Below are positions 14,460-44,600 of a stretch of 45,252 nt of DNA, one piece after another; positions within the stretch are counted from its first letter, which is position 1; each line of letters opens with the position of its first letter. Origin of the DNA: Pseudomonadota bacterium (GTDB lineage: Bacteria; Pseudomonadota; Gammaproteobacteria; Steroidobacterales; Steroidobacteraceae); assembly GCA_021815925.1 (NCBI GenBank), contig JAKAZL010000012.1:1-45252 (forward strand), written 5' to 3'. Both the position numbers and the translations under genes were made by a program. Below the pieces are notes generated by a model. That model was not told where the DNA came from. It saw only the letters and a list, made by a program, of their open reading frames with translations, and made no database searches.

Positions 14460-15545
14460 ATGGCACGACGAACCCCATTATTCGCCCTTCACCAGGCGGC
14501 CGGCGCGCGCATGGTGGATTTCGGCGGCTGGGACATGCCCCTGCAATTCGACTCGCTGCTCGCCGAGCATCATGCGGTGCGGCGCGCCGCCGGCGTGTTC
14601 GACGTGTCGCACATGTGCGTCATCGACCTCGAGGGCGTTGGGGTGCGTGCGCTGCTCGAGCAGCTCCTCGCCAACGACGTCGGCCGGCTCACTGTCCCGG
14701 GCAAGGCGCTCTACAGCTGTCTGCTCAACGAGCGCGGCGGCGTCATCGACGATCTGATCGTGTTCTACCTCGCCGAGCAGTCGTTCCGCGCGGTGGTCAA
14801 TGCCGGCACCCGCGATAAGGATCTCGACTGGATCGGTCGGCACGCCGCCTCGTTCGGCGTCAAGGTGCGCGAGCGGACCGATCTGGCCATGCTCGCGGTG
14901 CAGGGACCGCAGGGGCGCTCGAGCGTCGCCGCGCAGCTCACACCGCAGGCAGCCGCCCGTGCGCTCGCGCTCGGCGCGTTCGTCGGGGCTGAGATCGACG
15001 GCTGGTTCATCGCGCGCACCGGATATACCGGCGAGGACGGCTTCGAGATCATGTTGCCGGCGGCCGAGGCCGGGCCGCTGTGGCGCGCGCTGACCGCTGC
15101 CGGCGTCGTGGCGTGCGGGCTCGGTGCACGCGACACGCTGCGCCTGGAGGCCGGGATGAACCTCTACGGCAGCGACATGGACGAGGACACCACCCCTCTG
15201 GAGTCCGGACTCGAGTGGACGGTCGCGCTGCGGCCGGGCCGCGCGTTCATCGGTCGCGAGGCGCTCGAGGCGCAGCGTGCCCGCGGCATTGAGCGCAAGC
15301 TCGTCGGTCTGGTGCTCGAGGAGCGCGGTGTGCTGCGCGCGCATCAGCGGGTGATCGACGCGGACGGGGGCACAGGGGAGATCACCAGCGGCACTTTCTC
15401 CCCGACGCTCGAGCGTTCCATTGCGCTGGCCCGCATCCGCGCCGCCGCCCACGGCACGGTGCAGGTCGAGGTGCGCGGCAAGCGGCTCGCCGCGCGCCTC
15501 GTGCGGCCGCCGTTCGTCCGGGCCGGCAAATCCCTGATCGGCTGA
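14460..15545 (+). CDS. gcvT: Glycine cleavage system T protein (aminomethyltransferase)
   Basis: A 361-residue T protein that releases ammonia from the aminomethyl-lipoyl H protein and forms 5,10-methylene-THF. Conserved parts: MVDFGGWDMPLQF, GVFDVSHM, LLANDVGRLTVPGKALYS, ARTGYTGEDGFEI and GLGARDTLRLEAGMNLYG. ATG at 14460 has GGAGG five bases before it. First gene of gcvT-gcvH-gcvPA-gcvPB, under the glycine riboswitch. Confidence 0.96.
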   Translation: MARRTPLFALHQAAGARMVDFGGWDMPLQFDSLLAEHHAVRRAAGVFDVSHMCVIDLEGVGVRALLEQLLANDVGRLTVPGKALYSCLLNERGGVIDDLIVFYLAEQSFRAVVNAGTRDKDLDWIGRHAASFGVKVRERTDLAMLAVQGPQGRSSVAAQLTPQAAARALALGAFVGAEIDGWFIARTGYTGEDGFEIMLPAAEAGPLWRALTAAGVVACGLGARDTLRLEAGMNLYGSDMDEDTTPLESGLEWTVALRPGRAFIGREALEAQRARGIERKLVGLVLEERGVLRAHQRVIDADGGTGEITSGTFSPTLERSIALARIRAAAHGTVQVEVRGKRLAARLVRPPFVRAGKSLIG

Positions 15546-15620
15546 GCGGCCGGCTACCGCAAGCTGAGTTCCGATCCCTCATTCCTCCAGTCCCATCGGT
15601 CCGACCCAACGGAGCGTCGC

Positions 15621-16010
15621 ATGAGCAAGGTTCCTCCCGATCTCAAATACACCCGAACCCACGAGTGGCTGCGGACGCGGCCCGATGGCACGGTGGAAGT
15701 GGGCATCACCGATCACGCCCAGCATGCCCTCGGCGACCTGGTGTTCGTCGAGGTCCCGCAGGCCGGCCGCACGGTCGCCGCGGGCGAACCGTTCGCCGTC
15801 ATCGAATCGGTGAAGGCGGCCTCCGACGTGTACGCGCCGCTTGCCGCAGAGGTTATTGAGGGCAATCCGGCGCTCGAGCATGCGCCGGAGACCCTCAACA
15901 CCGATCCCTACGGCGAGGGCTGGCTTGCGCGGATCCGTCCCACGGGCGCGCCCGGGGCGCTGCTGAGTGCGGCGGAGTACGAGAAGCTGACCGCGGAGGA
16001 GAGTGACTGA
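15621..16010 (+). CDS. gcvH: Glycine cleavage system H protein
   Basis: A 129-residue lipoyl carrier protein that shuttles the aminomethyl group between P, T and L proteins. The lipoylated residue is Lys65 in [24 protein letters not shown] near the N-terminus and [11 protein letters not shown] are family signatures. The TGA overlaps the first base of the gcvPA ATG (TGATG). Confidence 0.96.
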
Positions 16011-17383
16011 TGGCCTTCGTTCCGCACACGCCCGAGGACGTCGCGGCCATGCTCGCGGCCATCGGCGTCGAGGACATCGAGCGGCTGTTCGAGGAGATCC
16101 CGGCGGCGCTGCGTGTCGGCTCGCTCGCCGGGGTGCCCGAGGCGCTCAACGAGATGCAGCTGGCACGGCTGATGAGCGAGCGCGCACGCCGTGACGGGCG
16201 GCCGCTATGCTTCATCGGCGCCGGCGCCTACGAGCATCACATCCCGGCGGCCGTCTGGGCGGTCGCGACACGCGGGGAGTTCTACAGCGCCTACACGCCC
16301 TACCAGGCCGAGGCCAGCCAGGGCACGCTGCAGCTGCTGTACGAGTACCAGACGATGATGGCCAGCCTGACGGGCATGGACGTCTCGAACGCTTCGCTCT
16401 ATGACGGCGCCAGCGCGCTCGCCGAGGCGAGCCTGATGGCCGTGCGCGCCAATCGGCGTTCGCATGCCCAGCGCATTCTGGTGCCGCGCACGGTGCATCC
16501 GCACTACCGTCGGGTCGCACGCACCATCGCCGGGAACCAGGGCATCACCTTCGAGGAGCTGCCGCTGTCGCTGGCAAGCGGCTGCACGGCGCTCGAGTCG
16601 CTCGAGCCCTACGCGACCGAGGACTGCACCGCGCTCGTCATCCAGCAGCCCAACGTCTTCGGTCGCCTCGAGGCGATCGATGCGCTGACCGACTGGGCCC
16701 ATGCGCACAACATCCTGGTGATCGCGGTGGTCAATCCGATCTCGCTCGCGCTGCTGAAGCCGCCGGGCGAGTGGGGCGCGCAGGGCGCGGACATCGTGGT
16801 CGGCGAGGGCCAGCCGCTCGGCATCCCGCTGTCCTCCGGCGGGCCGTATTTCGGCTTCATGACCACGCGGATGGCGCACGTGCGCCAGATGCCCGGGCGC
16901 ATCGTCGGGCGCACCGTCGATGCCGACGGCCGGCCGGGCTATACCCTGACGCTGCAGGCGCGCGAGCAGCACATCCGGCGGGCCAAGGCCACCTCGAACA
17001 TCTGCACCAACCAGGGCCTGATGGTCACGGCCGCCGCGATCCACCTGTCGTTGATGGGCGCCGAGGGGCTCAGGCGCACCGCGCTCGCCTCGCACGCGCG
17101 CACCCGGGAGCTGATCGCGGCGCTCGGCGCTGTGCCTGGCGTTCGGCCGCTGTTTCCTGAGCCGGTGTTTCACGAGGCCGCCCTCGGCCTGGAGCGGCCG
17201 GTCGCGCCGCTGCTCGAGCGTCTGGCGGCGCGCGGCATCCTCGGGGGCTGGGACCTCGGTGCGGACTATCCCGAGCTCGGCCCGGCGCTGCTGGTGTGCG
17301 CCACCGAGACCAAGACGGCTGAGGACATCGAGCGCTACCGCGGCGCCCTCGATGAGTGCCTGCGCGATGCGCGCGCCGCGTGA
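16010..17383 (+). CDS. gcvPA: Glycine decarboxylase P protein, N-terminal subunit
   Basis: A 457-residue subunit 1 of the two-subunit glycine decarboxylase (alpha2beta2 form), which decarboxylates glycine with PLP and passes the aminomethyl group to GcvH. Conserved: [61 protein letters not shown] and [13 protein letters not shown]. The PLP lysine lies in the other subunit. E. coli has a single fused GcvP; the split form is usual in Gram-positives, archaea and some proteobacteria. Confidence 0.95.
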
Positions 17384-17397
17384 GGAGAGTTGAACCG

Positions 17398-18885
17398 ATG
17401 AGCGCTGCACGAGACACACGCCTGGAAAAGCTGATTTTCGAGTACTCGGTGAGCGGCCGCGGGGCCAACGATCAGTGGCCGGCGCTGCCCGGCGCCGAGG
17501 CGAGCGCCGATCTGCCGGCGGCGCTGCGGCGCGCTGCGCCGCCGCTGCTGCCCGAGGTGAGCGAGCTCGAGGCGGTGCGGCACTTCACACGGCTGTCGCA
17601 GTTGAACTTCTCCATCGACACGCATTTCTACCCGCTCGGTTCGTGCACGATGAAATACAACCCCAAGGCGTGCAATCAGTACGCGATGCTGCCGGAGTTC
17701 CTGGCGCGCCATCCGCTCGCGCCCGAGTCACTCGGTCAGGGCGTGCTCGAGTGTCTGTTCGAGCTGCAGCAGATGCTCTGCGAGGTCACCGGCATGCAGG
17801 CGGTAGCCCTCAGTCCGATGGCCGGCGCGCAGGGCGAGTATGCCGGGGTGGCGATGATGCGCGCCTACCACCGCTCGCGCGGCGACCTCGCGCGCACCGA
17901 GATCATCGTGCCCGAGGCGGCGCACGGCACCAACCCGGCGACCGCGACCCTGTGCGGCTGCACCGTGCGCGAAGTGCCCGTCGATGCCGCGGGCGACGTC
18001 GACATCGAGGCGCTCAAGGCCGTGGTCGGACCGAAGACCGCCGGCATCATGCTCACGAATCCCTCGACGCTGGGAGTCTTCGAGCGGCGCATCGAGGAGG
18101 TCGCGCGCATCGTGCATGCGGCCGGCGGTCTGCTCTACTACGACGGAGCCAACCTCAACGCCATCCTCGGCAAGGTGCGCCCCGGCGACATGGGCTTCGA
18201 TGTCATCCACGTCAACCTGCACAAGACCTTCTCGACGCCCCACGGCGGCGGCGGCCCGGGCGCAGGCCCGGTGGGCGTCGCGGCGCGCCTGGCGCCATTC
18301 CTGCCGGTGCCCGTCGTGGCCCGCCGGGACGGGCGTTACGTGTGGCTCGCCGAGCGCGACCTGCCGCACTCGATCGGCCGGCTGTCGGCCTTCGCGGGCA
18401 ATGTCGGGGTCTTGCTGCGTGCGTATGTGTACATGCGCATGCTGGGCCGCGCGGGCATGGCCCAGGTGGGTGAGTACGCCACTCTCAATGCCAACTATCT
18501 GCTGGCGCGGCTCACCCGGGCGGGATTCGAGGCCGCCTATCCGCACCGCCGGGCCAGCCACGAGTTCATCCTCACGCTGCGCCGCCAGGCGCGCGAGCTC
18601 GGGGTGACGGCCATGGACTTTGCCAAGCGGCTCCTCGATCATGGCCTGCATGCGCCGACCACCTATTTCCCGCTGCTGGTGCCGGAATGTCTGCTGATCG
18701 AGCCGACGGAGACCGAGAGCAAGGCGACCCTGGACGCCTTCGCGCAGGCCATGGCGGACATATTGCTCGAGGCTGCGCAAGAACCCGAGCAGGTCACGAG
18801 CGCTCCGCATACCATGCCGGTACGGCGGCTCGATGACGTGCGGGCGGCCAAGCAGCTGGACCTTGCGTGGAAACCGAGCCCATAG
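17398..18885 (+). CDS. gcvPB: Glycine decarboxylase P protein, C-terminal PLP subunit
   Basis: A 495-residue subunit 2 carrying the PLP site: Lys276 in [16 protein letters not shown]. Other signatures are [33 protein letters not shown] and [12 protein letters not shown] at 17398 is preceded by GAGGAG; the frame is open 14 codons further up inside gcvPA, but that sequence is not conserved. dgkA begins 19 bases before its stop. Confidence 0.95.
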
Positions 18886-19256
18886 CCATCGAGCGTGGCA
18901 TCAAGCCCAGAGGCGTCGTTCGCGTCCTGCGTGCCTTCGGAGCGAGCTGGCGGGGACTCGCCGGCGCCTTCAGGGGCGAGGCGGCCTTCCGCCAGGAGCT
19001 GACGTTCGCGGCGCTGGCCGGCCCGCTCGCGCTGTGGCTCGGGCGCGACGGCACGCAGCGCGCCGTGCTGCTCGCGCCGGTCCTGCTGATCCTCGTGGTC
19101 GAGCTGCTCAACAGTGCCATTGAGGCGACCGTCGATCGCATCGGGCTCGAACGCCACGCGCTCGCCGGACTGGCCAAGGACTTCGGCTCGGCTGCCGTGT
19201 TCATGTCGTTCGTACTGCTCTTTGCCGTGTGGGCGCTGGTGCTGCTCGGCCGCTAG
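18867..19256 (+). CDS. dgkA: Diacylglycerol kinase DgkA
   Basis: A 129-residue trimeric inner-membrane kinase that phosphorylates diacylglycerol, recycling the by-product of envelope glycan modification. Catalytic residues Glu79, Asn82 and Glu86 in [11 protein letters not shown] correspond to E. coli Glu69, Asn72 and Glu76; EAAFRQEL (38-45) is the N-terminal active-site segment. Three membrane helices are seen. The start is GTG at 18867 within gcvPB, giving about 10 more residues than E. coli DgkA. Confidence 0.92.
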
Positions 19257-19278
19257 GCCGCTGTGATTCGGGGGGACG

Positions 19279-22164
19279 ATGCGATTGCTGCGACTGCCGT
19301 ACCTGGGTCTGCTGATTGTCCCGCTCGCTCTGGCCGCGGGTGCCGCGCGCGCCGCTCCGCCGCCGCGGGCGCTGCCGGGCGGCACGGCCGTGGCGGCTCA
19401 CCTGGCGCGCCAGGCCGCGGCGCTGGAGTCCAACCCCACCTGGGCCGCCACGCTCGCGCGCATTGCCAGCAGCGTCGTCGCGATCAACTTCAACCAGGAC
19501 CGGGCGTTCGACACGGACGTCAATGAGACCGCGGAGGCGACCGGATTCGTCGTCGACGCCAAGCGCGGCATCATCCTCACCAACCGCCACGTCGTCACGC
19601 CGGGGCCGGTGACGGCGACCGCCACGTTCCTCGATCGCGAGCAGATTCCGATCTACCCGATCTACCGCGACCCGGTGCACGACTTCGGCTTCTACCGGTT
19701 CGACCCGAAGAAGCTGCACTACATCCACCCCAAGGCGCTCGAGCTCGATCCGGCCGGGGCCCAGGTCGGGCGGGAAATCCGCGTGATCGGCAACAACGCC
19801 GGGGAGCAGCTGTCGATCCTCGCCGGCACGCTCGCGCGGTTGCACCGCCGGGCACCGAACTACGGGTTCGGCAACTACAACGACTTCAACACGTTCTACC
19901 TGCAGGCGGCCTCCGGCACCTCCGGCGGCTCCTCCGGCTCGCCGGTCATCGATATCCGCGGGCACGTGGTGGCCCTGAACGCCGGCGGCGCCAACAACGC
20001 GGCCTCGAGCTTCTACCTGCCGCTCGCGGCGGTGCAGCGGGCGCTGCGTCTGATTCAGCGGGGCCGGCCCGTCAGCCGCGGCACGCTCTACACCATCTTC
20101 CATTACACCCCGTTCGACGAGCTGGGGCGGCTCGGCCTGACCCCGCCGCTCGAGGCGGCCGTTCGCAAGGCGTTTCCGCAGCGCACCGGGATGCTGGTGG
20201 TGAGCACCGTGCTGCCCGGCTCGCCGAGTGCGCGCGTGCTGCAGCCCGGGGACATCCTGGTGCGCATCGACGGGCATTACGTGACGACCTTCGGGCCGCT
20301 CGAGCGTCTCCTGGATGATTCGGTCGGCCGTCAGATCCAGCTCCAGCTCGAGCGCGGGGGGCAGACGATCTCCGTGACGCTGCCGGTCGGAGACCTCAAC
20401 GCCATCACGCCGGACGCCTACGTGCAGTTCGGCGATGCGGTCGTCAACACGCTGTCCTACCAGATGGCGCTGCAGCTGAACGTGCCGCCCCGGGGAGTCT
20501 GGGTCGCCAACCCCGGCTACGTGCTGGGCGGCGCGGGCGTGCCGCGCGGGGCGGTCATTCATGCCATCGACGCCTGGCCGATCGACACGCTGGGCCAGTT
20601 CCGCCGGGCGATCGCCCGGATTCCCGACGGCGCTTACGCGACGGTGCGCTTCACGCTCGCCAGCGATCCGAACAGCACCGAGCTCGCCTACTTCCGCATG
20701 GAGCGGCGCTGGTTTCCGGCCGAGTACTGCGTGCGCGACGATCAGATCGGGCTGTGGCCCTGCCGCGCGCTGCCGGCCGGCCCGCCGCGGCCACCGCATC
20801 CGGTGATGTCGACCGGCTTTCCGGTCTACCGCAATCCGGTGCTGAACCGCCTGGCCCACTCGCTGGTGGCAGTGACCTTCAGCATGCCGTACTCGGTCTC
20901 CGGTGTGACGGAGCACTTCTACCACGGCACCGGCCTGGTGGTGGACGCCCGGCGCGGCTGGGTGGTGGTGGACCGCAACACCGTTCCGGTCTCGCTGGGG
21001 GACGTCACGATCACCTTCGCCGGCACCGTGCAGGTGCCGGGCCGGGTGGTGTATGTCAGCCCGATCCATAACCTGGCCGTCGTCGCCTACGACCCGCGAC
21101 TGATCGGCTCGACGCCGGTGCGCTCCGCGCACCTGGTGATGCACCCGCTGGTCTCGGGTGAGCCGATCGACGTCGTCGGCATCGGCAACGACAACGATCT
21201 GCACTTCCGCAGCACCCAGGTCTCGAGCATCGAGCCGCTCGGGCTGCCGCTGTCGCGCACCATGCGCTTCCGCGACACCAATATCGAGAGCATCCAGCTG
21301 GTCAACCCACCGAACAACTTCGATGGGGTGCTCACCGACGGCCGTGGCGAGGTCATCGGGTTGTGGTCGAGTTTCGCCTTCGACACCGCCAACGGGGTGG
21401 GTCAGGATCTGCAGGGCGTGCCCATCGGGCCGGTGCACGACATGATCGAGCGCATGCGCAGCGGCCAGCCGCTGCACTCCCTCGACGTGGAGCTCGGGCT
21501 CACGCCGCTTGCCAGCGCACGGCTGATCGGGCTCACCCCCCTCTGGGCTGAGCGGCTCGCCGCGCACAGCACGACGCGCCGCGTCGTGCTGACGGTGATC
21601 CGCACCACCGGCGGTTCACCGGCCGCGCGGCTGCTCGAGCCCGGGGACCTGCTGCTCGCGATCGACGGTCACGTGGTCACGCGCTTCGAGCAGGTCGAGC
21701 GCGCCACTGCCGATCGCAGTCAAGTGAGCCTGACGGTGTGGCGGGGACGCCAGGCGCTGACGCTGAACGTGCCGACGGTCGTGCTCTCCGGCACGCGTCT
21801 GCACCGGGTGGTGCAGTGGGCCGGCGCGACGCTGCAGCGGCCGTTCCACTCGATGCTGGCGCAGCGCGGCGTGCCGCCGGTCGGGGTCTACGTGGACAAC
21901 TTCGACTACGGTTCGCCGGCGGCCCGATATGGCCTGTACTCGGGGCTGCGCATCGTCGCGGTCGACGGCCATCCCACTGTGGACCTTGATGCGTTCCTGC
22001 GCGCCGTGGCCCACCGGCCCGATCACGCCTCGGTGCGGATCACTACGCTCGGCTGGAACAACGCCCCGCACGTCATCACCCTGACGCTCGACAATCACTA
22101 CTGGCCGGCCTACGAGCTGGTGCGCACCGACGGTAGTGGCTGGGTGCGGCGCGCGCTGCCCTAG
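19279..22164 (+). CDS. Exported double HtrA-like serine protease, Nma111/Ynm3-like
   Basis: A 961-residue protein with a Sec signal peptide (hydrophobic 8-20, likely cleavage after ARA at 23-25). The first trypsin-like domain (about 52-265) has a complete triad: His104 in TNRHVV, Asp135 in RDPVHDFGF and Ser219 in GTSGGSSGSP. A PDZ-like domain (about 290-370, LQPGDILVRIDGHYV) and a second PDZ-like region (about 385-480) follow. The second protease-like domain (about 515-730) is degenerate: Asn567 replaces the His, Asn598 the Asp, and FDGVLTD stands at the Ser. PDZ-like regions 3 and 4 (about 745-835 and 845-945) end the protein. This order is that of fungal Nma111p/Ynm3 and plant Deg7, and motifs such as EATGFVVDA and VHDFGF match the yeast protein as I recall it. 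Probably periplasmic. Preceded by GGGGGG before ATG. Confidence 0.85.
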   Translation: MRLLRLPYLGLLIVPLALAAGAARAAPPPRALPGGTAVAAHLARQAAALESNPTWAATLARIASSVVAINFNQDRAFDTDVNETAEATGFVVDAKRGIILTNRHVVTPGPVTATATFLDREQIPIYPIYRDPVHDFGFYRFDPKKLHYIHPKALELDPAGAQVGREIRVIGNNAGEQLSILAGTLARLHRRAPNYGFGNYNDFNTFYLQAASGTSGGSSGSPVIDIRGHVVALNAGGANNAASSFYLPLAAVQRALRLIQRGRPVSRGTLYTIFHYTPFDELGRLGLTPPLEAAVRKAFPQRTGMLVVSTVLPGSPSARVLQPGDILVRIDGHYVTTFGPLERLLDDSVGRQIQLQLERGGQTISVTLPVGDLNAITPDAYVQFGDAVVNTLSYQMALQLNVPPRGVWVANPGYVLGGAGVPRGAVIHAIDAWPIDTLGQFRRAIARIPDGAYATVRFTLASDPNSTELAYFRMERRWFPAEYCVRDDQIGLWPCRALPAGPPRPPHPVMSTGFPVYRNPVLNRLAHSLVAVTFSMPYSVSGVTEHFYHGTGLVVDARRGWVVVDRNTVPVSLGDVTITFAGTVQVPGRVVYVSPIHNLAVVAYDPRLIGSTPVRSAHLVMHPLVSGEPIDVVGIGNDNDLHFRSTQVSSIEPLGLPLSRTMRFRDTNIESIQLVNPPNNFDGVLTDGRGEVIGLWSSFAFDTANGVGQDLQGVPIGPVHDMIERMRSGQPLHSLDVELGLTPLASARLIGLTPLWAERLAAHSTTRRVVLTVIRTTGGSPAARLLEPGDLLLAIDGHVVTRFEQVERATADRSQVSLTVWRGRQALTLNVPTVVLSGTRLHRVVQWAGATLQRPFHSMLAQRGVPPVGVYVDNFDYGSPAARYGLYSGLRIVAVDGHPTVDLDAFLRAVAHRPDHASVRITTLGWNNAPHVITLTLDNHYWPAYELVRTDGSGWVRRALP

Positions 22165-22185
22165 CCGGCGCGACGGAGCGGGCGG

Positions 22186-23169
22186 ATGGGTCGAGTGACA
22201 CCTGCGCAGATCGCGGCTGCCGCGCGTGCGCTGCGCGCCGGCGAGCTGGTGGCCTTCCCGACGGAGACGGTCTACGGACTCGGTGCCGATGCGCGCAACC
22301 CGGCCGCGGTGCGGCGCATCTTCGCGGTCAAGGGCCGCCCGGCGCGCCATCCGCTGATCGTGCACCTGGCCGACATCGGTCAGCTTCCGGCGTGGGCGCG
22401 CGAGGTGCCCGAGGCGGCGCGGCGGCTCGCCGAGCGGTTCTGGCCCGGACCCCTCACGCTGGTGCTGCCGCGCGCCGCGGGTGTCGAGGACAGCGTGACC
22501 GGCGGACAGGACACCGTGGCACTGCGGGTGCCTGCCAACCCAGTGGCGCAGCAGCTGCTCGCCGCCTTCGGAGGAGGCATCGCGGCGCCCTCGGCCAACC
22601 GCTATGGGCGGGTCTCGCCCACCTGTGCCGAGCACGTGCGCGAGGAGTTTGGCGAGACAGTGCCCATCGTGCTCGACGGTGGGGAGTGCGCCATCGGCCT
22701 GGAGTCGACCATCGTGGCATTCCAGGACGGGGTGGCTCGCCTCCTGCGGCCGGGGCGCATCACGGCCGGGGAAATCACCGCGCTGATCGGCCCGCTCGCA
22801 ATCGGCGCCGATGCAGGCTCCCCGCGCGTCCCGGGCAGCACGCCCGCGCACTACGCCCCGAGCACGCCCCTGAGCATCGTGCCGTCCGAGCAGATCGAGG
22901 CGCGTAGCGCCGCGCTCGCCCACGGCGGTCGGCCAGTGGCCGTGCTGGCCTGGCGCCCGAGCGCGGCACCGCATCCGGGTGTCCTCTGGATCGACGCCGG
23001 TGCGCGTGCCCCGCAATACGCGCACGACCTGTATGCGCATTTGCGCACCCTCGACAAAAGCGGCGCCGAGCGCATCCTGGTGCAGGACGTGCCCGACGGC
23101 GAAGCCTGGGCGGCGATCCGCGACCGGCTGCGTCGCGCGGCCGCCGGCGCGAAGCAGGAGACTCCATGA
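22186..23169 (+). CDS. tsaC: Threonylcarbamoyl-AMP synthase, Sua5 type
   Basis: A 327-residue enzyme making threonylcarbamoyl-AMP from threonine, bicarbonate and ATP for the t6A37 tRNA modification. YrdC domain at about 8-190: FPTETVYGLGADARN, VKGRPARHPLIVHL, FWPGPLTLVL and APSANRYGRVSPT. The extra C-terminal Sua5 domain (about 225-325), joined by a linker with PGSTPAHYAP, makes it the Sua5 rather than the short TsaC form. The stop overlaps the next ATG (ATGA). Confidence 0.93.
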   Translation: MGRVTPAQIAAAARALRAGELVAFPTETVYGLGADARNPAAVRRIFAVKGRPARHPLIVHLADIGQLPAWAREVPEAARRLAERFWPGPLTLVLPRAAGVEDSVTGGQDTVALRVPANPVAQQLLAAFGGGIAAPSANRYGRVSPTCAEHVREEFGETVPIVLDGGECAIGLESTIVAFQDGVARLLRPGRITAGEITALIGPLAIGADAGSPRVPGSTPAHYAPSTPLSIVPSEQIEARSAALAHGGRPVAVLAWRPSAAPHPGVLWIDAGARAPQYAHDLYAHLRTLDKSGAERILVQDVPDGEAWAAIRDRLRRAAAGAKQETP

Positions 23170-24347
23170 GCGTCAGACGCACTCGATTCGTCGATCCTTT
23201 CCAGCCGGCGGAGATCCGTCGCCTCGTGCGCCAGTTCGGCTCCCCGCTGCTCATCCTCGACTGCGAGCGTGTGCGCGTGCAGTACCGCAAGCTGCGCGCG
23301 GCGCTCGGGCGCGTCGATCTGCACTACGCGCTGAAGCCCATGCCGCATGCGGCCGTGGTGCAGACCGTGCTCGGCGAGGGAGGCTTTCTCGACCTTGCGA
23401 CCAGCGGCGAGGTGCAGCTCGTGCGCCGGCTCGGCGTCGATCCGGCGCGCTGCATCCACACCCATCCGATCAAGCGCCCGCAGGACATCCGCAACGCGCT
23501 CGATTTCGGCGTGCGCACCTTCGTGGCCGACAACCCCGATGAGGTGCGCAAGTTCGAGCGTTTCGCCGATCGTGCCGAGCTGCTGCTGCGCGTCTCGTTC
23601 CGCAGCCCCGGCGCGGTGTGCGACCTGTCGCGCAAGTTCGGTTGTGACCCCGAGGATGCGCTCGCGCTCGCACGGCTCGCTTCCGAGCTCGGCATCACGG
23701 TGCGCGGCCTGTCCTTCCACGTCGGCTCCCAGGCGGGCGATTCGGCCAAGCACGTCGAGGCGCTGCACGCCTGTGCGAGCCTGATGGCCGCAGGTCGCCG
23801 CCGCCGGCTCGGGGTGCTCGACACGCTCGACATCGGGGGTGGCTTCCCCATCGATTACACGCAGCCGGTGCAGGACATCGAGCGCTTCTGTGAGCCGCTG
23901 CGCACCGCGCTCGAGGCGTTGCCGAAGCGAGTGCGGGTGATCGCCGAGCCCGGGCGGTTCATCGTCGGCCCGGCCGCGATCGGCGTCGCTTCGGTGATGG
24001 GTCGTGCGCGCCGGGAAGGACACTGGTGGTACTACCTCGATGACGGCCTGTACGGCTCCTACAGCGGCCAGCTCTACGATCACGCGCGCTACCCGGTCGA
24101 GCCGCTGAAGGACTCCGAGGAGCGCCTGCCCTCGGTGCTCGCCGGCCCGACCTGCGACAGCATTGACGTCATCGCCGAGAATCTGCTGCTGCCGAAGCTC
24201 GAGGCGGGCGACCTGATCATCGGACGGGCGATGGGCGCCTATACCTGGGCGAGTGCCTCGGAGTTCAATTTCTTTCCCAAGGCGACCGTCGTGGCGGTGA
24301 ATCTGACGCCGGGCGATGCCGGGATGGTGATGCCGTTCCCGCTGTAG
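23166..24347 (+). CDS. PLP-dependent ornithine/lysine-type decarboxylase (fold III)
   Basis: A 393-residue fold-type III (alanine racemase-like) decarboxylase of the ornithine/diaminopimelate decarboxylase family. PLP Lys57 in HYALKPMPH, Gly-loop DIGGGFPID (222-230), EPGRFIV (261-267) and active-site Cys330 in GPTCDSIDVI. The GPTCDSxD form is typical of ornithine and lysine/ornithine decarboxylases, so a polyamine role is more likely than lysine synthesis, but the substrate cannot be fixed from sequence. The ATGA overlap with tsaC suggests one operon. SpeC-like is the best description. Confidence 0.82.
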   Translation: MSVRRTRFVDPFQPAEIRRLVRQFGSPLLILDCERVRVQYRKLRAALGRVDLHYALKPMPHAAVVQTVLGEGGFLDLATSGEVQLVRRLGVDPARCIHTHPIKRPQDIRNALDFGVRTFVADNPDEVRKFERFADRAELLLRVSFRSPGAVCDLSRKFGCDPEDALALARLASELGITVRGLSFHVGSQAGDSAKHVEALHACASLMAAGRRRRLGVLDTLDIGGGFPIDYTQPVQDIERFCEPLRTALEALPKRVRVIAEPGRFIVGPAAIGVASVMGRARREGHWWYYLDDGLYGSYSGQLYDHARYPVEPLKDSEERLPSVLAGPTCDSIDVIAENLLLPKLEAGDLIIGRAMGAYTWASASEFNFFPKATVVAVNLTPGDAGMVMPFPL

Positions 24348-24381
24348 TGGCCGCGCGAGAATCCAAGGAGCAGATCGTCTG

Positions 24382-24975
24382 ATGCGCAACGTGGTGTTTG
24401 ATATCGGCTGGGTGTTCGTGCACCTGGACAGCGAGCGGTTTCTGCAGTTTCTGCGCGCGCACGGGGCGGACGCCCGGGACTTGAACTCGGTGCTCACCCG
24501 CGTGGCGCTGCACGAGCACGAGTGCGGCCGGCTGTGCGGTCGGGAGCTGCTCGAGCGGTTCGCGCAGATCGCCCCGCAGCCGATGGACCTCACCGCAGCG
24601 CAGGAGCGCTGGCTCGATATGTTCGAGCTGCAGCCGGCGATGGTGGCACTGGCCAACCGGCTCAGCGAGCGTTACCGGGTCTACCTGTTGTCGAACATCG
24701 GCGATCTGCACTGGGCCCACCTGTCGCGCGAATTCGGCCTGCATCGCATCGGTCACGGCGCGCTGCCGTCGTTTCTCGCCGGGGTCATGAAGCCCGAGGC
24801 GGGCATCTACGCCGAGGCCGAGCGGCGCTTCGCCCTGGAGCCGGCCGAGACGGTGTTCATCGACGATCGGGCCGAGAACGTTCAGGCGGCGCGCGGGCGC
24901 GGCTGGCAGGCGATCGAACACACCGGGTACGCCACCACGGTCGGCGCATTGCGCGTGCTGGGCGTTGAATGCTGA
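24382..24975 (+). CDS. HAD-family hydrolase (YihX-like)
   Basis: A 197-residue HAD subfamily IA protein. Motif 1 is VVFDIGWVFVHLD: nucleophile Asp7 is kept, while the usual second Asp is Gly9, as in YihX-type phosphatases (FDLGNV). Trp10 stands where those have Asn. Motif 2 is LLSNIGD, motif 3 the Lys of GVMKPEAGIY, motif 4 FIDDRAEN. A sugar-phosphate phosphatase role is likely by family. AAGGAG lies 11 bases before the ATG, a long spacing. It overlaps the HIT gene by 7 bases. Confidence 0.82.
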   Translation: MRNVVFDIGWVFVHLDSERFLQFLRAHGADARDLNSVLTRVALHEHECGRLCGRELLERFAQIAPQPMDLTAAQERWLDMFELQPAMVALANRLSERYRVYLLSNIGDLHWAHLSREFGLHRIGHGALPSFLAGVMKPEAGIYAEAERRFALEPAETVFIDDRAENVQAARGRGWQAIEHTGYATTVGALRVLGVEC

Positions 24976-25421
24976 GCAGCGCTGACACCGCGATTCACCG
25001 CCAGGTCGAGGCGGCGCGCGCCGCCGCCGAGCCGCGGGTCATCGGCCGGCTGGAGTCGGGCTGGGCCGTTCTCGGGGAGCGGCAGTTTCTGCCCGGGTAT
25101 GCGCTGCTGCTGCCGGATCCTGTGGTGCCGAGTCTGAATGCGCTCGATGCGCCCGGACGGGCGCGTTTCCTGCTCGATCTGGCGCGGCTCGGCGATGCGG
25201 TGCTCGCAGTCACCGGGGCGCTGCGCATCAACTACGCCATGCTCGGCAACCTCGAGCCGGCGCTGCACGCGCACGTCATTCCCCGCTATGCCGAGGAGCC
25301 CGAGGCCCTGCGTACGGCGCACCCCTGGGCGTACGACTGGCAGGCGGGTGCGCCGTTCGATCCGCTCGTGCACGGAGAACTCCTGGCGCAGCTGCGCCAG
25401 GCGCTCACCCGGGCCGGCTGA
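24969..25421 (+). CDS. HIT-family protein
   Basis: A 150-residue HIT-like protein. The active-site region NYAMLGNLEPALHAHVIPRY contains HxHxxP, a HIT motif in which the third His is Pro, as in some diadenosine/histidine triad relatives. Likely a nucleotide hydrolase or transferase, substrate unknown. It starts inside the HAD gene (7-base overlap), so the two are coupled. It ends 8 bases from the convergent DUF3014 gene. Confidence 0.8.
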   Translation: MLSSADTAIHRQVEAARAAAEPRVIGRLESGWAVLGERQFLPGYALLLPDPVVPSLNALDAPGRARFLLDLARLGDAVLAVTGALRINYAMLGNLEPALHAHVIPRYAEEPEALRTAHPWAYDWQAGAPFDPLVHGELLAQLRQALTRAG

Positions 25422-26871: not shown

Positions 26872-27594
26872 TCACGCCAGGGTGTGGAACACCCGCTGCA
26901 CGTCATCGTCCTGCTCGAGCTTGTCGATCAGCGCGAGCACTTCCTGTGCCTGCGCCTCGGGCAGCTCGGTCGGTACCGTGCAGACGTACTCGCGCTCGGC
27001 CGACAGCGGCGTCAGCGCACGCGCCTCGAGCGCTTCCTGCATCCGGCCGAAGTCCTCGAACGCGCAGCGGATCACCAGCTGCGGCTCGCCGCCCTCGCCG
27101 GTGCTCTCGCCCATCTCCTCGAGCCCGTGATCGATCAGGTACAGCTCAAGGTCATCCGAGTCGATGCCGGTCGGATCGAGGCGGAACACGCCCATGTGCT
27201 TGAACAGGAACGAGACGCTTCCCGAGGTGGCGAGGTTGCCCCCGCCCTTGGTGACGATGTTGCGGACTGCGGCCACCGTGCGGGTGGGATTGTCCGTGGC
27301 CGCCTCGATGAGCATCGCCACGCCGTGGGGCGCGTACGCCTCGTAGTGCACTTCCTGGTAGTGGGCGGCGTCACGCCCACTCGCCCGCTTGATGGCCGCC
27401 TCGACCTTGTCCTTCGGCATGTTGACCGCACGGGCGTTCTGGATCACGCGCCGCAGGGCCGGGTTGCTGGTCGGATCGGGCCCGCCCGCCTTCACCGCCA
27501 TGGTGATGTCCTTGGCGATGCGCGCGAACTGCTTGGCCATGCGGTTCCAGCGCGCAAACATGGTGTGCTTGCGGACTTCGAAAATGCGTCCCAT
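26872..27594 (-). CDS. yebC: YebC/PmpR family protein
   Basis: A 240-residue YebC-family protein, a group first described as DNA-binding regulators (PmpR) and more recently linked to translation through difficult (polyproline) sequences. Signatures: [62 protein letters not shown] and [14 protein letters not shown]. The N-terminus [19 protein letters not shown] differs from the MAGHSKW start of E. coli YebC and marks a second subgroup. It lies 33 bases after the desaturase gene. Confidence 0.9.
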
Positions 27595-27627
27595 GCGAGA
27601 GTGTCGGCTCGAGTACGGGGTGCAGGA

Positions 27628-28794
27628 TCAGGCGAGCTGCGCTTGCAGCACGCGCAGGCGGCGGCGCTGCAGTCGCAGACGCTCCTCGAGCTCCTTGAAG
27701 CGCAGCTGGAAGCTGGTGTGCTCCCAGTGCTCGACGACGGCGCGCTTCTTCTCGTTGAGCCACTGCTCCTTCACCTTGGCCCAGTCGGCGATCGCCGCGT
27801 GGAAGCTGTCGTATTCACGCGCGATATGCTGGTGCAGCTCGCTGATGCGGGACGGTGCCGCGGTCGGCGCGACGCGCTCGAGCGAACTCTGCGCCCGCGC
27901 GAACTGCATGGCGAGCAGCGCGCGCTGGATCTGGAACACCGGCGTGCGCTTGAGCTTGCGGGTGAGGCCCACCCACTGCAGGCCGGCAATCAGCCACTTG
28001 GTCGGGTCCCACTGCCACCAGCGCACCCCGTTGCGGTAATCGTGCGCGAAGATATGGTGGAAGTTGTGATAGCCCTCGCCGAAGGTCAGCACCGCGAGCA
28101 CCGGGTTGTCCCGGGCGGTGTTCTCCTCGGTGTACGGGCGCGTGCCCCACATGTGCGCGAGCGAGTTGATGAAGAACGTGAAGTGGTGGCTCAGCACCAA
28201 TCGGAGCACGCCGGCGAGCAGGAATACCCCCCACAGATCCCCGGTCAGCCAGCCGGCGAGGAGCGGCAGTCCAATGTTGGTCAGCAGCACGAGCGGCAGG
28301 TAGTAGCGGTGCTGGAATGCCAGCATGCGGTCGCGGCGCAGATCGGGGATGTTGCTGAAGTCCGACTTGCCGCTCGGGTACTCGCGGACCATCCAGCCGA
28401 TGTGCGAGAACCAGAAGCCCCGCCGCGCCGAGTACGGGTCAAGCTGCTCGTCGTCGACGTTCAGGTGATGGCGGCGGTGGCCGCTGCACCAGTTCCAGGC
28501 ACTGTTCTGCAGGGCCATGGTGGCAAAGACCAGATAGACCGCCCGCAGGCTCCAGTGGGCCTCGTAGGCGCGGTGCGCCCAGAGGCGGTGGTAGCCCGCC
28601 GTGATCGACAGCTCGTTCGCGGTCAGGAAGACCCCGAGGAGCACCCAGGCCGAGATGCTGTAGCCGTGCACGATGCCGTACCAGGGTACGAGCACGGCGG
28701 CGGCCAGAAATGTCAAAGAAAACAATATGATATTGGTCCAGATCGGCGGGGCCGTCTCGACGGTCTGCGGAACCTGGGCGGATGACTTGGGCAT
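27628..28794 (-). CDS. Membrane fatty acid desaturase (delta-9 type) with coiled-coil tail
   Basis: A 388-residue acyl desaturase of the membrane di-iron class. The three His boxes are in order: HRLWAHR, HRRHH and HNFHH, with four membrane helices between. It would place a double bond in acyl-CoA or acyl-lipid, adjusting membrane fluidity. The last 100 or so residues (about 285-388) are charged and helical with a Leu/Arg coiled coil (ELEERLRLQRRRLRVLQAQL), longer than in a minimal desaturase. An alternative ATG at 28839 with GGAA upstream would add 15 residues; neither start has strong support. Confidence 0.88.
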   Translation of the reverse strand: MPKSSAQVPQTVETAPPIWTNIILFSLTFLAAAVLVPWYGIVHGYSISAWVLLGVFLTANELSITAGYHRLWAHRAYEAHWSLRAVYLVFATMALQNSAWNWCSGHRRHHLNVDDEQLDPYSARRGFWFSHIGWMVREYPSGKSDFSNIPDLRRDRMLAFQHRYYLPLVLLTNIGLPLLAGWLTGDLWGVFLLAGVLRLVLSHHFTFFINSLAHMWGTRPYTEENTARDNPVLAVLTFGEGYHNFHHIFAHDYRNGVRWWQWDPTKWLIAGLQWVGLTRKLKRTPVFQIQRALLAMQFARAQSSLERVAPTAAPSRISELHQHIAREYDSFHAAIADWAKVKEQWLNEKKRAVVEHWEHTSFQLRFKELEERLRLQRRRLRVLQAQLA

Positions 28795-38229: not shown

Positions 38230-39459
38230 TTATCCGACCTGGCTCGATATGCGGCAGAAGAACGCCTTGAGATAGCGCGTCTCGGGAACCGCCGGGTGGA
38301 CGGGGTGGTCCGGGGACTGGCCGCCCGCCTCGAGGATCTGTACGCCCCGGCCGCCGTGCCGCGCCGCCGTCTGCAGCACCTCCCCGAGTGCCTCGGCGGA
38401 GAGGTGATACGAGCAGGAGCACGACACCAGCAGGCCTTCCTCGCCCATCAGCCCCATCGCGAGCTGATTGAGCTTGCGGTAGGCCGCCTGGCCGCGCGGG
38501 ATGTCCTTCTTGCGCTTGATGAAGGCCGGCGGGTCGAGCACCACGACGTCGAAGCGCTCGCCGCGCTCGCGCAGTGCCGCAAGCGCCTCGAAGGCATCGC
38601 CCCGCAGGGTCTGCAGGGCCAGCCCGTTCGCCTGCGCGTTGCGCTCGGCGTAGTCGAGCGCGGCCTGCGAGCCGTCGACACACAGGGCGGAGCCCGCGCC
38701 GGCGGTGAGCGCCGTGAGGCTCCACGCTCCGACGTAGCCGCACACATCGAGCACGCGCGCCCCGCGCGTGAGGTAGCGGGTCAGCCGCTCCCGGTTGGCG
38801 CGCTGATCGTAGAACCAGCCGGTCTTCTGCCCGGTGGCGAGCGGAGCGGCGAAGGCGAGTCCCGCCTCGCGCACCGTGAGCTCGGCCGGGATCTGCCCGA
38901 ACGCCGTCTCGGCGAGCGCCGGCAGGCTCTCGAGCGTTCGCGCACCCGAATCGTTCTTCCAGAATAGCCCCGCCGGGGCGAGTCGCTCGCGCACGGCGGC
39001 CTCGATCGTCGGACGCAGTGCCTCCATGCCGGCGGTGGCGATCTGACCGACCAGCACGTCCCCGTAGCGATCGAGCACCAGGCCGGGCAGACCATCGGAC
39101 TCGCCGAACACCAGCCGGTAGTACGGCTCGCGGTACAGCCACTCGCGCAGCCGCAGCGCCGCTTCGAGCCGCTGTTCGATAAGCGCCCCGTCGATGGGCC
39201 GCTCGGCCGTGCGGCTGACGATCCGCGCGCAGATCAGCGCGTGCGGATTGACGTAGGCGTGGCCCAGGAACTGCCCACGGTGCGATTCGATGCGGGCGTG
39301 CTCGCCGGGGCTGAACGCGCGCAGCGGGGTGTCATCGTCGACTTCGTTGCTGAATACCCAGGGGTGGCCGGCGAGGATGCGGTGCTCCTCGCCGCGCTTC
39401 AGGCGCAGCGTGCGTCCGGTGTTCGGAACGGCATCGGCGGGGGACGTCGGGACACTCAA
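38230..39459 (-). CDS. rlmI: 23S rRNA (cytosine-C5)-methyltransferase RlmI-like
   Basis: A SAM-dependent methyltransferase with an N-terminal PUA-like domain ([21 protein letters not shown]), a central domain ([19 protein letters not shown]) and a Rossmann fold ([37 protein letters not shown]). E. coli RlmI makes m5C1962 in 23S rRNA. The start is uncertain: TTG at 39459 gives 409 residues and follows a TATACT -10 box (39492-39497) by about 33 bases, but lacks a Shine-Dalgarno. In-frame sequence further up is unconserved and crosses the divergent gene. Confidence 0.88.
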
Positions 39460-39491
39460 GGGGGCAGCCGGCGGTCGATTACGGGGGCGGC

Positions 39492-39497
39492 AGTATA
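39492..39497 (-). promoter_or_regulatory. -10 box of the rlmI-lgt-thyA-SET-kup-folA series
   Basis: TATACT on the minus strand; predicted start near 39485. No clear -35 element. The six genes downstream are separated by 41 bases or less, so this may be the main promoter. Confidence 0.4.
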
Positions 39498-39568
39498 CAG
39501 GCGCCGGCGCCGCCCCGCGCGGTATGCTGGCCGCCCGGTCCCGCTCCCGGAGCCTGCACGGAAGTTCC

Positions 39569-41656
39569 ATGGAAAGCCGACATCTCAACGCCGATGGCAC
39601 ACCGAAATACACCAACCGCCTGATCGGCGAGACCAGCCCGTACCTGCGCCAGCACGCCCACAACCCGGTGGACTGGCATCCCTGGGGCGAGGAGGCTTTC
39701 CAGCTCGCGCGCCAACTCGGCCGCCCGGTGCATCTGAGCATCGGCTATGCGGCCTGCCACTGGTGCCACGTGCTCGCTGCCGAGAGCTTCGAGGACGAGC
39801 GGACCGCCGAGCTGCTCAACAGTCGGTTCGTGAACATCAAGGTCGACCGCGAGGAGCGGCCGGACGTCGACCGGATCTACCAGATCGCCCAGCAGATGCT
39901 GACGCACGGCCCGGGTGGCTGGCCGCTGACCATGTTTCTCACTGACGAGCGCCGGCCGTTCTTCGGCGGGACGTACTTCCCGCCCGAGCCGCGCCACGGG
40001 TTGCCGGGCTTTCGGGACCTGCTCGAGCGCGTCGCGCGCTACTACGCGGAGCATCGCGAGGCGCTCGCCGCGCAGGGCGAGGCGCTCGTCGCGGCATTCC
40101 AGAGCATCGATCCGCCGCCCCCGGAGGCGGGCCGGGTGCTCGATGACGGACCGCTCGAGCGGGCCCGTGCGGACCTGGAGCGTGTGTTCGATGCGCGCGA
40201 GGGGGGCTTCGGCGGCGCGCCGAAGTTTCCGCACCCGAGCTCGATCGAGCGGCTGTTGCGTCACTGGCGCACGACCGTCCGGCACGATCCCCCGGATCTG
40301 CGCGCGTTGTACATGGCGGGCCTGACGCTCAGGCGCATGGCCGACGGCGGCATCCACGATGCGCTCGGCGGCGGCTTCTACCGCTACTCGGTCGATGAGC
40401 GATGGCGGATTCCGCACTTCGAGAAGATGCTCTACGACAACGCCTGGCTGCTCGCGGTGTACGCCGATGCGTACGTGGCGAGCGCCGATGCGCGTTATGC
40501 CGAGGTCGCGCGCGACACGGCTGAGTGGATGTGCCGCGAGATGCAGTCCGAGGAGGGCGGTTTCTACTCGAGCCTGGATGCGGATGCCGCCGGGCACGAG
40601 GGAAGTTTCTACGTCTGGGACCGCGAGGAGGTCCGCGCACTGCTGAGCGCGGAGGAATACGCCGCGTTCGCGCCGCTTTACGGCCTGGATCAAGCGCCGA
40701 ACTTCGAAGGACGCTGGCACCTGTACGTGGCGCGCGAGCCGGACTCGCTTCCCGGGCTGCTCAACGAACCGGCGGAGCGACTCGCCGGGCGGCTCGCAAG
40801 CGCCCGCGAGAAGCTGCTGGCGGCGCGTGCGCGCCGTGAGCGTCCCGCGCGCGACGAGAAGATCCTGACGGCGTGGAACGGTCTGGCGATCGCCGGCCTT
40901 GCCCGGGCCGCCCGCGCGCTGCCGTGCGCCGGGCTCGGCGAGTCGGCGAGCCGCGCGCTCGAGTTCGTGCGCGGCGCGCTGTGGCGCGAGGGACGGCTGC
41001 TGGCCACCTCAGGTGGTGGCCGAGCGCGGCTCAACGCCTATCTTGACGATTACGTCTTCCTCGCCGATGCGGTCCTGGAGCTGCAGCAGTTGCGGCTGCG
41101 GCCCGAGGAGCTCGCCTTCGCCGTCGAGCTGATGGAGGTGGTGTTGGAGCACTTCAGCGCCGCGGAGGGCGGGTTCTACTTCACGGCCGACGATCACGAG
41201 CCGCTGTTGCACCGCCTGCGGACCTTCGCCGACGAGGCGCTGCCGGCCGGCAACGCCATCGCCGCGCGCGTGCTGCTGCGCCTGGGCTATCTGCTCGGCG
41301 AGGGGCGCTACCTGCAGGCGGCCGAGCGCGTCGTGCGCGCCGGCTGGGCGCCGCTCGAGCACCATCCCCAGGCGCATGCGACGCTGCTCAACGTGCTGGA
41401 GGAGCTGCTCGAGCCACCTGAGATCGTGATCCTGCGCGGCGAGCCGGCGGCCATCGAGTCCTGGCAGCGCGAGCTCGCGCGGCTGTATGCGCCGCAGCGC
41501 ATGGTGCTCGCGGCGGCCGCGGACGCCCCGGGCCTGCCGCCGGCGCTCGCGGCCAAGCCGGCGCGCGGCGCGGCGACCGCTTACCTCTGCCGCGGCAGCG
41601 TCTGCAGCGAGCCGATCGACAGCTTCGCCGCGCTCGCCGAGGCGCTGCGCGCCTAG
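39569..41656 (+). CDS. YyaL/SSP411-family thioredoxin-domain protein
   Basis: A 695-residue protein of the YyaL/spermatogenesis-associated protein 20 family. Residues about 8-170 form the thioredoxin-like DUF255 domain ([21 protein letters not shown], with CHWC in [12 protein letters not shown], then [10 protein letters not shown] and [10 protein letters not shown]). The remainder is an (alpha/alpha)6 barrel like N-acylglucosamine epimerases and cellulases ([48 protein letters not shown]). The function is not known; a redox-linked role is suggested by the CxxC. ATG at 39569 has GGAAG five bases before it. It is divergent from rlmI and ends one base from the convergent putA stop. Confidence 0.88.
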
Positions 41657-41657
41657 C

Positions 41658-44600
41658 TCAAGTCAGCAGCTCCACCGCGCCGCCGATCGCCGCGGTGTTG
41701 ATCGTGAGCGTACGCTCGGTCGCGAAGCGCAGCAGGTAGTGCGGACCGCCGGCCTTCGGGCCCGTTCCGGACAGGCCCTGGCCGCCGAATGGCTGCACGC
41801 CAACCACTGCGCCGATCATGTTGCGGTTGACGTAGGTGTTGCCCGCCGGCAGTGACTGGAAGACGTGCTCGGCCATGGTCTCGAGCCGGCTGTGCACGCC
41901 GAGCGTCAGCCCGAAGCCGCTCGCGCGGATGGCCGCGAGCACCTGCGGCAGCTCCTCGGCGCGGTAGCGCGCCACGTGCAGGATGGGGCCGAACTCCTCG
42001 CTCTTGAGCTGATCGAACGCGCCGAGCTCGAACAGATGCGGGGCGAAGAACTGCCCGCCAGCGGCACAGCCGTCGGTCGGGCAGGCATGCAGGAGCTTCG
42101 CCTCGCGGCGCATGCGCTCGGCGTGCCGCTCGAGGCGCTGGCGCGCCTGGGCGTTGATCACCGGTCCGACATCGGTGGCCGGATCGGCCGGGTCGCCGAG
42201 TCTCAGGCAGCGCATCGCGCCCACCAGCATCTCGATGACCCGCTCGGCGATCTCCTCCTGCACGTAGAGCACCCGCAGCGCCGAGCAGCGCTGTCCGGCG
42301 CTGTTGAATGCCGAGAGGATCACATCGTCGACGACCTGCTCGGGTAGCGCCGTGGCGTCCACGATCATCGCGTTGACGCCGCCGGTCTCGGCGATGAACG
42401 GAACGATCGGGCCGTCACGGCCGGCGAGCGTGCGGTTGATCGTGGCCGCCGTCGTGGTCGAGCCGGTGAACGCCACGCCGGCGAGCGCCGGGTGCGTCAG
42501 CGCCGCGCGGCTGAAGGGCGGGCCGTCCGCGGGCGTCAGCTGCAGCACCGCGCGCGGGACGCCCGCTTCCTGCAGCAGGCTCACCATGGCGTGGGCCACG
42601 AGCGGGGTGCTCGGTGCCGGCTTGGCCAGCACCGCATTGCCGGCCATCAGGGCCGCGGCGATCTGGCCGGTGAAGATGGCGAGCGGGAAGTTCCACGGAC
42701 TGATGCAGGCGAACACCCCGCGGCCCTGCAGCCACAGCTCGTTGCGCTCACCGACCGGTCCCGGCAGCACCTCACCGGAACCAAACAGCCTGCGGCCCTG
42801 CTCGGCGTAGTAGCGGCAGAAATCGCTGGCCTCGCGCACCTCGGCGAGCGCATCGGGCAGCGTCCGACCGGCCTCGCGTACCAGCAGGCCGAGAAACGCC
42901 TCGCGGCGCTGCTCGAGCAGCGCCGCGGCGCGCTCGAGGCACTCGGCGCGCTCGGCCGCCGGACGTCGGTCCCAGGCCGGCTGCGCCGCCGCGGCGGCGT
43001 CCATGGCGGCGCTGATCTCCGTCTCGCTCGCATCGCGGCTCACACCGACGAGCTCACCGTCGGCCGGGCAGTGCACCGGGGTCTCAGGCGGCGCACCGGC
43101 GCCGGCGGCGAGGATCGGGCCGCCCGTGTACGGCCGGCCGCGCGCTGCCGCGAGACCCTCGAGCAGCGCCGCGAGCTCCTTAGGGTTGCCGAGATCCGCG
43201 CCGCGCGAGTTCAGGCGCGAGCCGTACAGGTGCGGCGGCTCGCGTACGCCGGAGGGGCGCTGGGGGTTTTCGGGAAGGATCTGTCCCACGACGTGCTCCA
43301 CGGGAATGCGTTTGTTGAGAAAGTGGTGGACGAAGGAAGTGTTGGCGCCGTTCTCGAGCAGCCGGCGTACCAAGTACGGCAGAAGGTCCTGATGGGTGCC
43401 GACCGGCGCGTACACGCGCACCGGCGGCAGCTGCGGCTGCTCGGCGCGCACCACCCCATAGAGCGCCTGTCCCATGCCATGCAGCCGCTGGAACTCGTAG
43501 CGCGCGCTGCTCGGGGCGAGCGCGGCGACCGCCGCGACGGTGAGCGCGTTGTGCGTGGCGAACTGCGGATAGATCACATCGGCGGCCGCGAACAGCCGCC
43601 GCACGCAGACCAGATAGCTCGCGTCCGTGACCGCCTTGGTCGTGTACACCGGGAAACTCGCAAGTCCCCGCTCCTGGGCGCGCTTGATCTCGGCGTCCCA
43701 GTAGGCGCCCTTCACCAGGCGCATGCTCATGCGCCGGCCGGTTGCGCGCGCGAGCGCGGCGACCCACTCGATCACGAGCGGTGCGCGGCGGCCATAGGCC
43801 TGCACCGCCAGTCCCAGTCCCTCCCAGTCACGGGTCTGCCGGTCGCGCGCCATGGCCTCGATGACATCGAGCGAGAGGTCGAGCCGGTCGGCCTCCTCGG
43901 CATCGACCGTCAGCCCGATGCCCGCGCGACAGGCCGCCCGGGCGAGCTCGACGGCGCGCGGCACCAAGCGCTCGAGGACGCGGGGACGTTGCGTCAGCAG
44001 GTAGCGCGGCTCGAGCGCGGAGAGCTTCACGGAGATCCCGGAGCGCGCGTATACGGCCCCGGCGGGTTGGCGGCCGAGCGCCTCGATCGCGTTCCGGTAC
44101 GCCTGGAAATAGCGCTCCGCGTCGGCATCGGTGCGTGCCCCTTCGCCCAGCATGTCGAACGAGCACAGCGCCAGGTCGCTCTGGCGGGTGCCACGCGCGA
44201 GCGCCGCTTCGATCGATTCCCCGACGATGAACGCGTGGCCCATCAGGCGCATCGCCCGCCGCATGATGCGGCGGGTCGTCGGCGCCAGGAGATTGCGCGG
44301 CGCCGGTGAGCGCGTGAGCAGGGCGTGCGCATCGGGGAGCATCCGTCCAGCGGTGCGCAGCAGCGCGAGGCCCAGGCGCACCTGCAGGTTCGCCTCCCCG
44401 TTGCCCCCGCGCAGCGCCGCCAGCCGCTCGGCGATCAGGCGGTCGGCGCTGAGCGCATCCGGCGTGCGCAGCAGTGCCTCGGCGAGGCTCATCAGCGCCT
44501 TGCCCTCGGCGCTGTCGAGGGGGAACTGCCCGAGCAACGACTCCACCAGCGAGCCGGCGCGCGCGTGCGCGCGGGCGGCGCTCACCCAGTGCAGGGCCTG

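Follow-up and report, generated by a model that had tools for sequence, protein, structure and literature searches.

The 45,252-nucleotide stretch of DNA analysed here (the window) encodes a protein that we consider likely to be an exported protein-quality-control protease/chaperone of double-HtrA layout, in which the first half cuts and the second half is a non-catalytic scaffold, the two having arisen by a single old duplication. A layout of two HtrA units is found in yeast Nma111p/Ynm3 and in fungi, and the window protein and its relatives probably form, as judged by domain layout, PDZ_1, and triad spacing, a bacterial branch of the Nma111/Deg7 class. The layout was known from plants and fungi, and bacterial relatives of yeast Nma111 had been mentioned in 2018; the apparent export, a cysteine pair at the joint between the halves, and the standing of the gene as a core gene of one order are new.

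Gene and domain layout

The gene, its two neighbours, and the parts of its product were located as follows (domain limits in residues are approximate).

18867..19256, + strand: upstream neighbour, diacylglycerol kinase (dgkA-like)
19270..19276, + strand: G-rich, ribosome-binding-like stretch GGGGGGA ahead of the ATG (direct reading)
19279..22164, + strand: double-HtrA gene, 961 aa (961 codons plus stop, read from the sequence)
19279..19353, + strand: signal-peptide-like N-terminus, residues 1-25 (sequence by eye and N-termini of relatives)
19450..20043, + strand: first protease domain, catalytically intact, residues 58-255 (Trypsin_2; triad in 50/50)
19588..19590, + strand: catalytic His104 (alignment of 50 non-redundant proteins)
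19681..19683, + strand: catalytic Asp135 (same alignment)
19933..19935, + strand: catalytic Ser219, within GGSSGSP (same alignment)
20164..20394, + strand: first PDZ domain, residues 296-372 (PDZ_6/PDZ_2)
20401..20703, + strand: second PDZ domain, PDZ_1 type, residues 375-475 (PF12812, 54.4 bits)
20728..20763, + strand: cysteine pair C484...C495 in the tail of half 1, W-F-P-x3-C-x8-W-x-C (50/50)
20848..21462, + strand: second protease domain, non-catalytic, residues 524-728 (Pfam, profile-profile comparison, fold model)
20977..20979, + strand: Asn567 in the place of His, motif DRNTVP (alignments)
21070..21072, + strand: Asn598 in the place of Asp (alignments)
21319..21327, + strand: F681-D682-G683 at the Ser loop (alignments)
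21556..21774, + strand: third PDZ domain, residues 760-832 (Pfam, profile-profile comparison)
21790..22113, + strand: fourth PDZ domain, PDZ_1-like, residues 838-945 (second PF12812 match at 21802-22026; profile-profile comparison)
22186..23169, + strand: downstream neighbour, Sua5/TsaC-type threonylcarbamoyl-AMP synthase

A preliminary description of this DNA had proposed the 961-residue frame at 19279..22164, a Sec signal peptide, and the domain order protease-PDZ-PDZ-protease-PDZ-PDZ. The frame was confirmed, with the ribosome-site-like stretch upstream, and the order, found in the window protein by Pfam, by profiles, and in a model of half 2, was borne out. What stands of the proposed Sec signal peptide is a signal-like N-terminus judged by eye (residues 1-25 with a basic start, a hydrophobic core, and A-R-A preceding residue 26), and the protein is apparently exported, to the periplasm or the envelope. 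The plain signal peptide is replaced by a lipobox-like L-T-[SA]-C in some distant members (L094 and L041/L042, family f18, which is the family of genome G046); these relatives may be lipoproteins.

Pfam matched Trypsin_2 to two stretches of the window protein (both also passing E 0.001), PDZ_1 (PF12812) twice, and other PDZ models up to three times. PDZ_1 was present in 18/18 double proteins. In eight further double proteins, PDZ_1 was found in all at E 0.001 (seven above the cut-off), and Trypsin_2 matched one stretch in four and two stretches in the other four, the second domain being fainter to Pfam. One relative (G808:C1:1378133-1380955) gave a double-HtrA match split in two; it probably carries inserted sequence close to its third PDZ domain, since the two pieces, ~85 bases apart, sit within one 1,042-aa frame.

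The alignment started from 67 long matches. P0001 stood in for three copies of the window protein, and the protein of genome G379 (L121) was a further entry, which brought the set to 66 rows. Excluded were L052, which occupies the place of L121, and L115 and L116, which are contig-broken pieces. These 66 double proteins are part of all survey matches, and 50 were left at <95% identity (the non-redundant proteins), with 28-87% identity to the window protein.

The cysteine pair in the tail joining the halves is a new feature, absent from the preliminary description. Both C484 and C495 were present in 50/50 non-redundant proteins, and in 45/50 no other cysteine occurs from residue 55 onward, even with insertions counted. 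The two have no counterpart in the second half of the window protein, where the same tail motif occurs without cysteines. Because the protein is taken to be exported, we read the pair as probably forming a disulfide at the joint. The regulatory disulfide reported for Escherichia coli DegP lies elsewhere, in loop LA of the protease domain, where it affects activity (PMC4339722); the pair described here lies between two units.

The second half

That residues 520-735 form a second protease domain was supported by profile-profile comparison, in which they matched residues 55-262 at 99.4% (E 2.5e-21, 199 columns) and ordinary HtrA proteases at 98.1% (1e-13); the control against PDZ domains gave 0.4%. 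The entire first half matched the entire second half at 100% (E 6.5e-48); the 431 aligned columns take in the tail motif, so the whole protease-PDZ-PDZ-tail unit was doubled; identity between the halves in the profile alignment was only 29%.

The triad H104/D135/S219 of the first domain was complete in 50/50 non-redundant proteins and the second in 0/50. Asn567, Asn598, and FDGVL at the Ser loop, named earlier as the residues in place of the triad, were read correctly in the preliminary description. Position 567 was never His (N in 42, D in 3, S in 3, T in 1, Y in 1), position 598 was N in 48/50 and D in 2/50, and positions 681 and 682, the Ser registers of two alignments, were never Ser (0/50); position 680, directly before them, was Ser in 14/50. 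Strongly conserved in this domain were the motifs DRNTVP and HPxHN, with His597 of the HN motif found in 46/50 and its first-half counterpart His134 in 50/50.

The dead second protease domain is under purifying selection; its conservation across kingdoms, put forward in the preliminary description, is an inference. Seven close pairs gave dN of 0.018-0.075 and dS of 0.20-1.23 (dN/dS ~0.04-0.22). As dN lies well below dS, the domain has been kept, less strictly than the first: mean pairwise identity was 0.66 in the first protease domain and 0.45 in the second, which is close to the PDZ domains in this respect.

A structure prediction, proposed in the preliminary description as a check on the second fold, gave a full-length model that was poor overall (18 sequences; mean pLDDT, 65.5; pTM, 0.41), which did show, at 520-728, the strands that a second barrel pair should have. 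Half 2 modelled alone reached a pTM of 0.75 (pLDDT, 76.4 for the best of five models and 59.2-71.3 for the others), and here a second HtrA fold was found, the absence of which the preliminary description had named as refuting its reading. The best PDB matches of this model, DegP and DegQ, covered the protease domain as well as the two PDZ domains (E 3.2e-21 at probability 1.00, over 435 alignment columns). Against DegP, half 2 scored only ~0.5 in whole-chain TM-score, since the domains are arranged differently relative to one another or their arrangement is uncertain. Half 2 is thus modelled as an HtrA fold whose domains are right and whose mutual domain placing is not to be trusted.

Duplication, distribution, and surroundings

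Two trees were built with ordinary HtrA proteins, E. coli DegP and DegQ among them (DegS in tree 1 only). Tree 1, with 32 first halves and 32 second halves (32 of the 50 double proteins), 22 of 48 ordinary HtrA proteins, and a single HtrA protein (L122), fell into three groups with SH-aLRT values of 100, 98, and 100. Tree 2 did without 11 of the 87 rows, which were long branches or near copies and included E. coli DegS; with the remaining 28, 28, and 20 rows it supported the first halves at 100/100, the second halves at 100/98, and the ordinary HtrA proteins at 100/100, each group being intact in 100% of 200 bootstrap trees. The three groups leave the position of the root undefined, and long branches meet in tree 2, including the branch to the second halves. 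Neither half lay inside DegP/DegQ, the placement that the preliminary description had named as the mark of a recent local duplication. Three separate groups establish one old duplication and rule out a recent one inside DegP/DegQ; as read from these comparisons, a single early event doubled the protease-PDZ-PDZ-tail unit, and the two copies have been passed on as a pair ever since.

The single protein L122 (G376:C3:5690-6949) is a 498-aa HtrA from a 1.3-Mb genome of the same phylum that was not assigned to the window's class. It gave 134 bits to the window protein versus 65 to DegP by BLAST, and 187 bits with the double-HtrA profile. As a pre-duplication ancestor it is unsupported, having no PDZ_1, a weak PDZ_3, and a long branch without a firm place.

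A search of bacterial genomes for the same layout, also proposed earlier, found the double form widespread in the order (genome counts include the window's own genome). The gene occurred in 137/148 genomes of the order (136/147 of the well-completed ones), in 35/40 genomes of relatives, in 25/369 genomes of the class (14 families), and in 14/118 genomes of one other family, that of G046. The phylum sample gave matches in 6/398 genomes at E 1e-40, namely five double proteins, all of the window's class, and one single 498-aa protein. Among named bacterial contigs, scanning turned up 17 loci, all in metagenome-assembled genomes titled Proteobacteria (13), Gammaproteobacteria (3), and Woeseia (1). 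The double HtrA is therefore a core gene within one order, with a patchy occurrence across the rest of the class. Two apparent half-only proteins (G842 and G021) were rejected, both being cut by a contig end. Eukaryotic Nma111 or Deg7 was not found among the best 60 of 92 solved-structure matches, in plasmids, or in viral contigs.

Ordinary HtrA proteins were present in 40/40 genomes, the window's own included (best E ~6e-99 or better to the DegP model; 36/40 above the cut-off). The double HtrA is therefore not the sole envelope protease, and the idea that it replaces DegP was rejected.

The protease gene stands in a same-strand run of housekeeping genes (window positions 14460-25421, + strand) whose order is kept in near relatives: gcvT, a probable gcvH (labelled by position only), two subunits of gcvP, dgkA, tsaC, and PLP decarboxylase, HAD, and HIT genes. 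The glycine-cleavage gene gcvPB lay upstream in 15/17 loci of the named-contig scan and was found in 7/19 more distant regions (~6 kb each side, some cut by contig ends); it was absent near the double HtrA in the most distant families. Other recurrent neighbours, each at 5-7 of 22 loci, were pfkB, lgt, thymidylate synthase, and an FAD enzyme. Genomic context was rejected as a guide to function, the neighbours being ordinary housekeeping genes that give no functional lead. Farther along the window lie a 633-aa frame without a Pfam match (26884-28785, + strand), with similar frames, split into two or three pieces, at the same place in near genomes; a 788-aa protein with a DsbH-type thioredoxin domain, DUF255 (39290-41656, + strand); and a 1,035-aa PutA-type protein with proline dehydrogenase, aldehyde dehydrogenase, and DNA-binding domains (41658-44765, - strand).

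Kinship, rival readings, and proposed role

Like Nma111p/Ynm3, the window protein has an HtrA-type active protease, a PDZ_1-type domain, and a close triad spacing. His-Asp/Asp-Ser distances were 31/84 in 45/50 double proteins and 31/82-86 in 50/50, versus 30/72-77 in 45/48 ordinary HtrA proteins (the other three had 37/72, 35/75, and 34/85). The Neurospora Nma111 orthologue is reported with His120, Asp151, and Ser234, which gives 31/83 (PMC3434108), and fungal HtrA/OMI proteins are described as bearing the PDZ1 Pfam domain (PMC5982838). PDZ_1 scores in the phylum sample reached at most 41.4 bits in ordinary HtrA proteins and 47-67 bits in four of five double proteins; the fifth, at 30.8 bits, means that the PDZ_1 score alone does not separate all double from ordinary HtrA proteins. 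Kinship with the Nma111/Deg7 class is supported by PDZ_1 and by the triad spacing, two signatures of the fungal type; the bacterial and eukaryotic proteins may descend from one double-HtrA ancestor. Unlike fungal Nma111, which one report places exclusively in the nucleus (PMC11596484), the window protein has a signal-like N-terminus (by eye) and the conserved cysteine pair; being the product of a bacterial gene with such an N-terminus, it is not the nuclear protein that a strict Nma111p orthologue would be.

Plant Deg7 is described as having one active and one degenerate protease domain and four PDZ domains, in the order PD-PDZ-PDZ-inactive PD-PDZ-PDZ, with a length of ~1,000-1,100 aa (PMC3473262, PMC4754418), the same order as in the window protein, a likeness drawn from these published descriptions. 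It differs in location, on the stromal side of thylakoids (PMC4754418). DegP/DegQ (Do family) share with the window protein the protease-PDZ-PDZ unit, the fold of each half, and the envelope location predicted for it; they differ in having a single unit and a tree group of their own, and the window protein scored 111.9 bits against the DegP/DegQ model TIGR02037, far below its cut-off of 416.2 bits. According to a 2018 paper, certain bacterial proteins resemble the yeast HtrA more closely than the human one; it mentions them without their layout (PMC5982838). The literature searched gave, among the matches listed, no account of a bacterial double-HtrA family, and a term search of a 2024 review on HtrA proteins in Gram-negative bacteria (PMC11642142) found no occurrence of Nma111, Deg7, "two protease domains", or "degenerat".

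Where the layout arose can be read in several ways. Possibly, and we offer this tentatively, duplication and death of the second half took place in bacteria before eukaryotic uptake, and nuclear Nma111 and chloroplast Deg7 descend from an ancestor that worked in the envelope and later gave up both the signal for export and the inter-unit disulfide. The exported gammaproteobacterial family would then be the living bacterial side. Restriction of the double form to the window's class, in both the class sample and the sample of its phylum, would fit convergence, that is, a bacterial duplication and decay independent of Nma111/Deg7; we regard this as rather unlikely given a PDZ_1-type domain at the same place, a Deg7 layout with the same half decayed, and a triad spacing of 31/83-84, not 30/72-77. 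The same narrow range (the five double proteins among 398 genomes belong to a single class) could reflect gene transfer from a eukaryote to Gammaproteobacteria rather than the reverse, a reading made very improbable by the deep divergence among the bacterial proteins (as low as 28% and up to 87% identity to the window protein), the core status across the order, the signal-like N-terminus, and the cysteine pair. The protease-PDZ-PDZ unit is as in DegP, and yet the idea that an ordinary DegP/DegQ gene was recently duplicated in place can be practically dismissed, being refuted by both trees; the low identity of the halves, 29%, also speaks against it.

A different question is what the second protease domain does. 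It might have been repurposed for a ligand-binding or catalytic task of its own and not be mainly a scaffold: its DRNTVP and HPxHN motifs are strongly conserved, Ser adjoins the lost serine slot at 680 in 14/50, and a repurposed HtrA-type protein, MamO, is reported to bind metal (PMC4794232). We hold this to be quite improbable, as His597 (46/50) is matched by His134 (50/50) in the active half and is therefore inherited rather than a new metal site, no other cysteine is conserved, and His occurs at 567 in 0/50.

On the preferred reading, an exported protease/chaperone with a scaffold half, the first half would cut misfolded envelope proteins held by its PDZ domains, and the second half would serve as a non-catalytic scaffold on which the oligomer is built and/or substrate is bound. 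The scaffold role is suggested because the degenerate domain of Deg7 is reported to mediate homotrimers (PMC4754418). A C484-C495 disulfide would stiffen the joint between the halves. By analogy, the window protein may work like Nma111 and Deg7; we infer its protease activity, location, disulfide, and oligomer alike.

A bacterial family with the same decay, carried as a core gene of an order, makes it possible to ask whether the decay predates eukaryotes. As a bacterial protein that is likely easy to express, it also offers a route to why a dead HtrA domain is kept. Next to DegP/DegQ and DegS, the double HtrA would stand as one more class of HtrA in the envelope.
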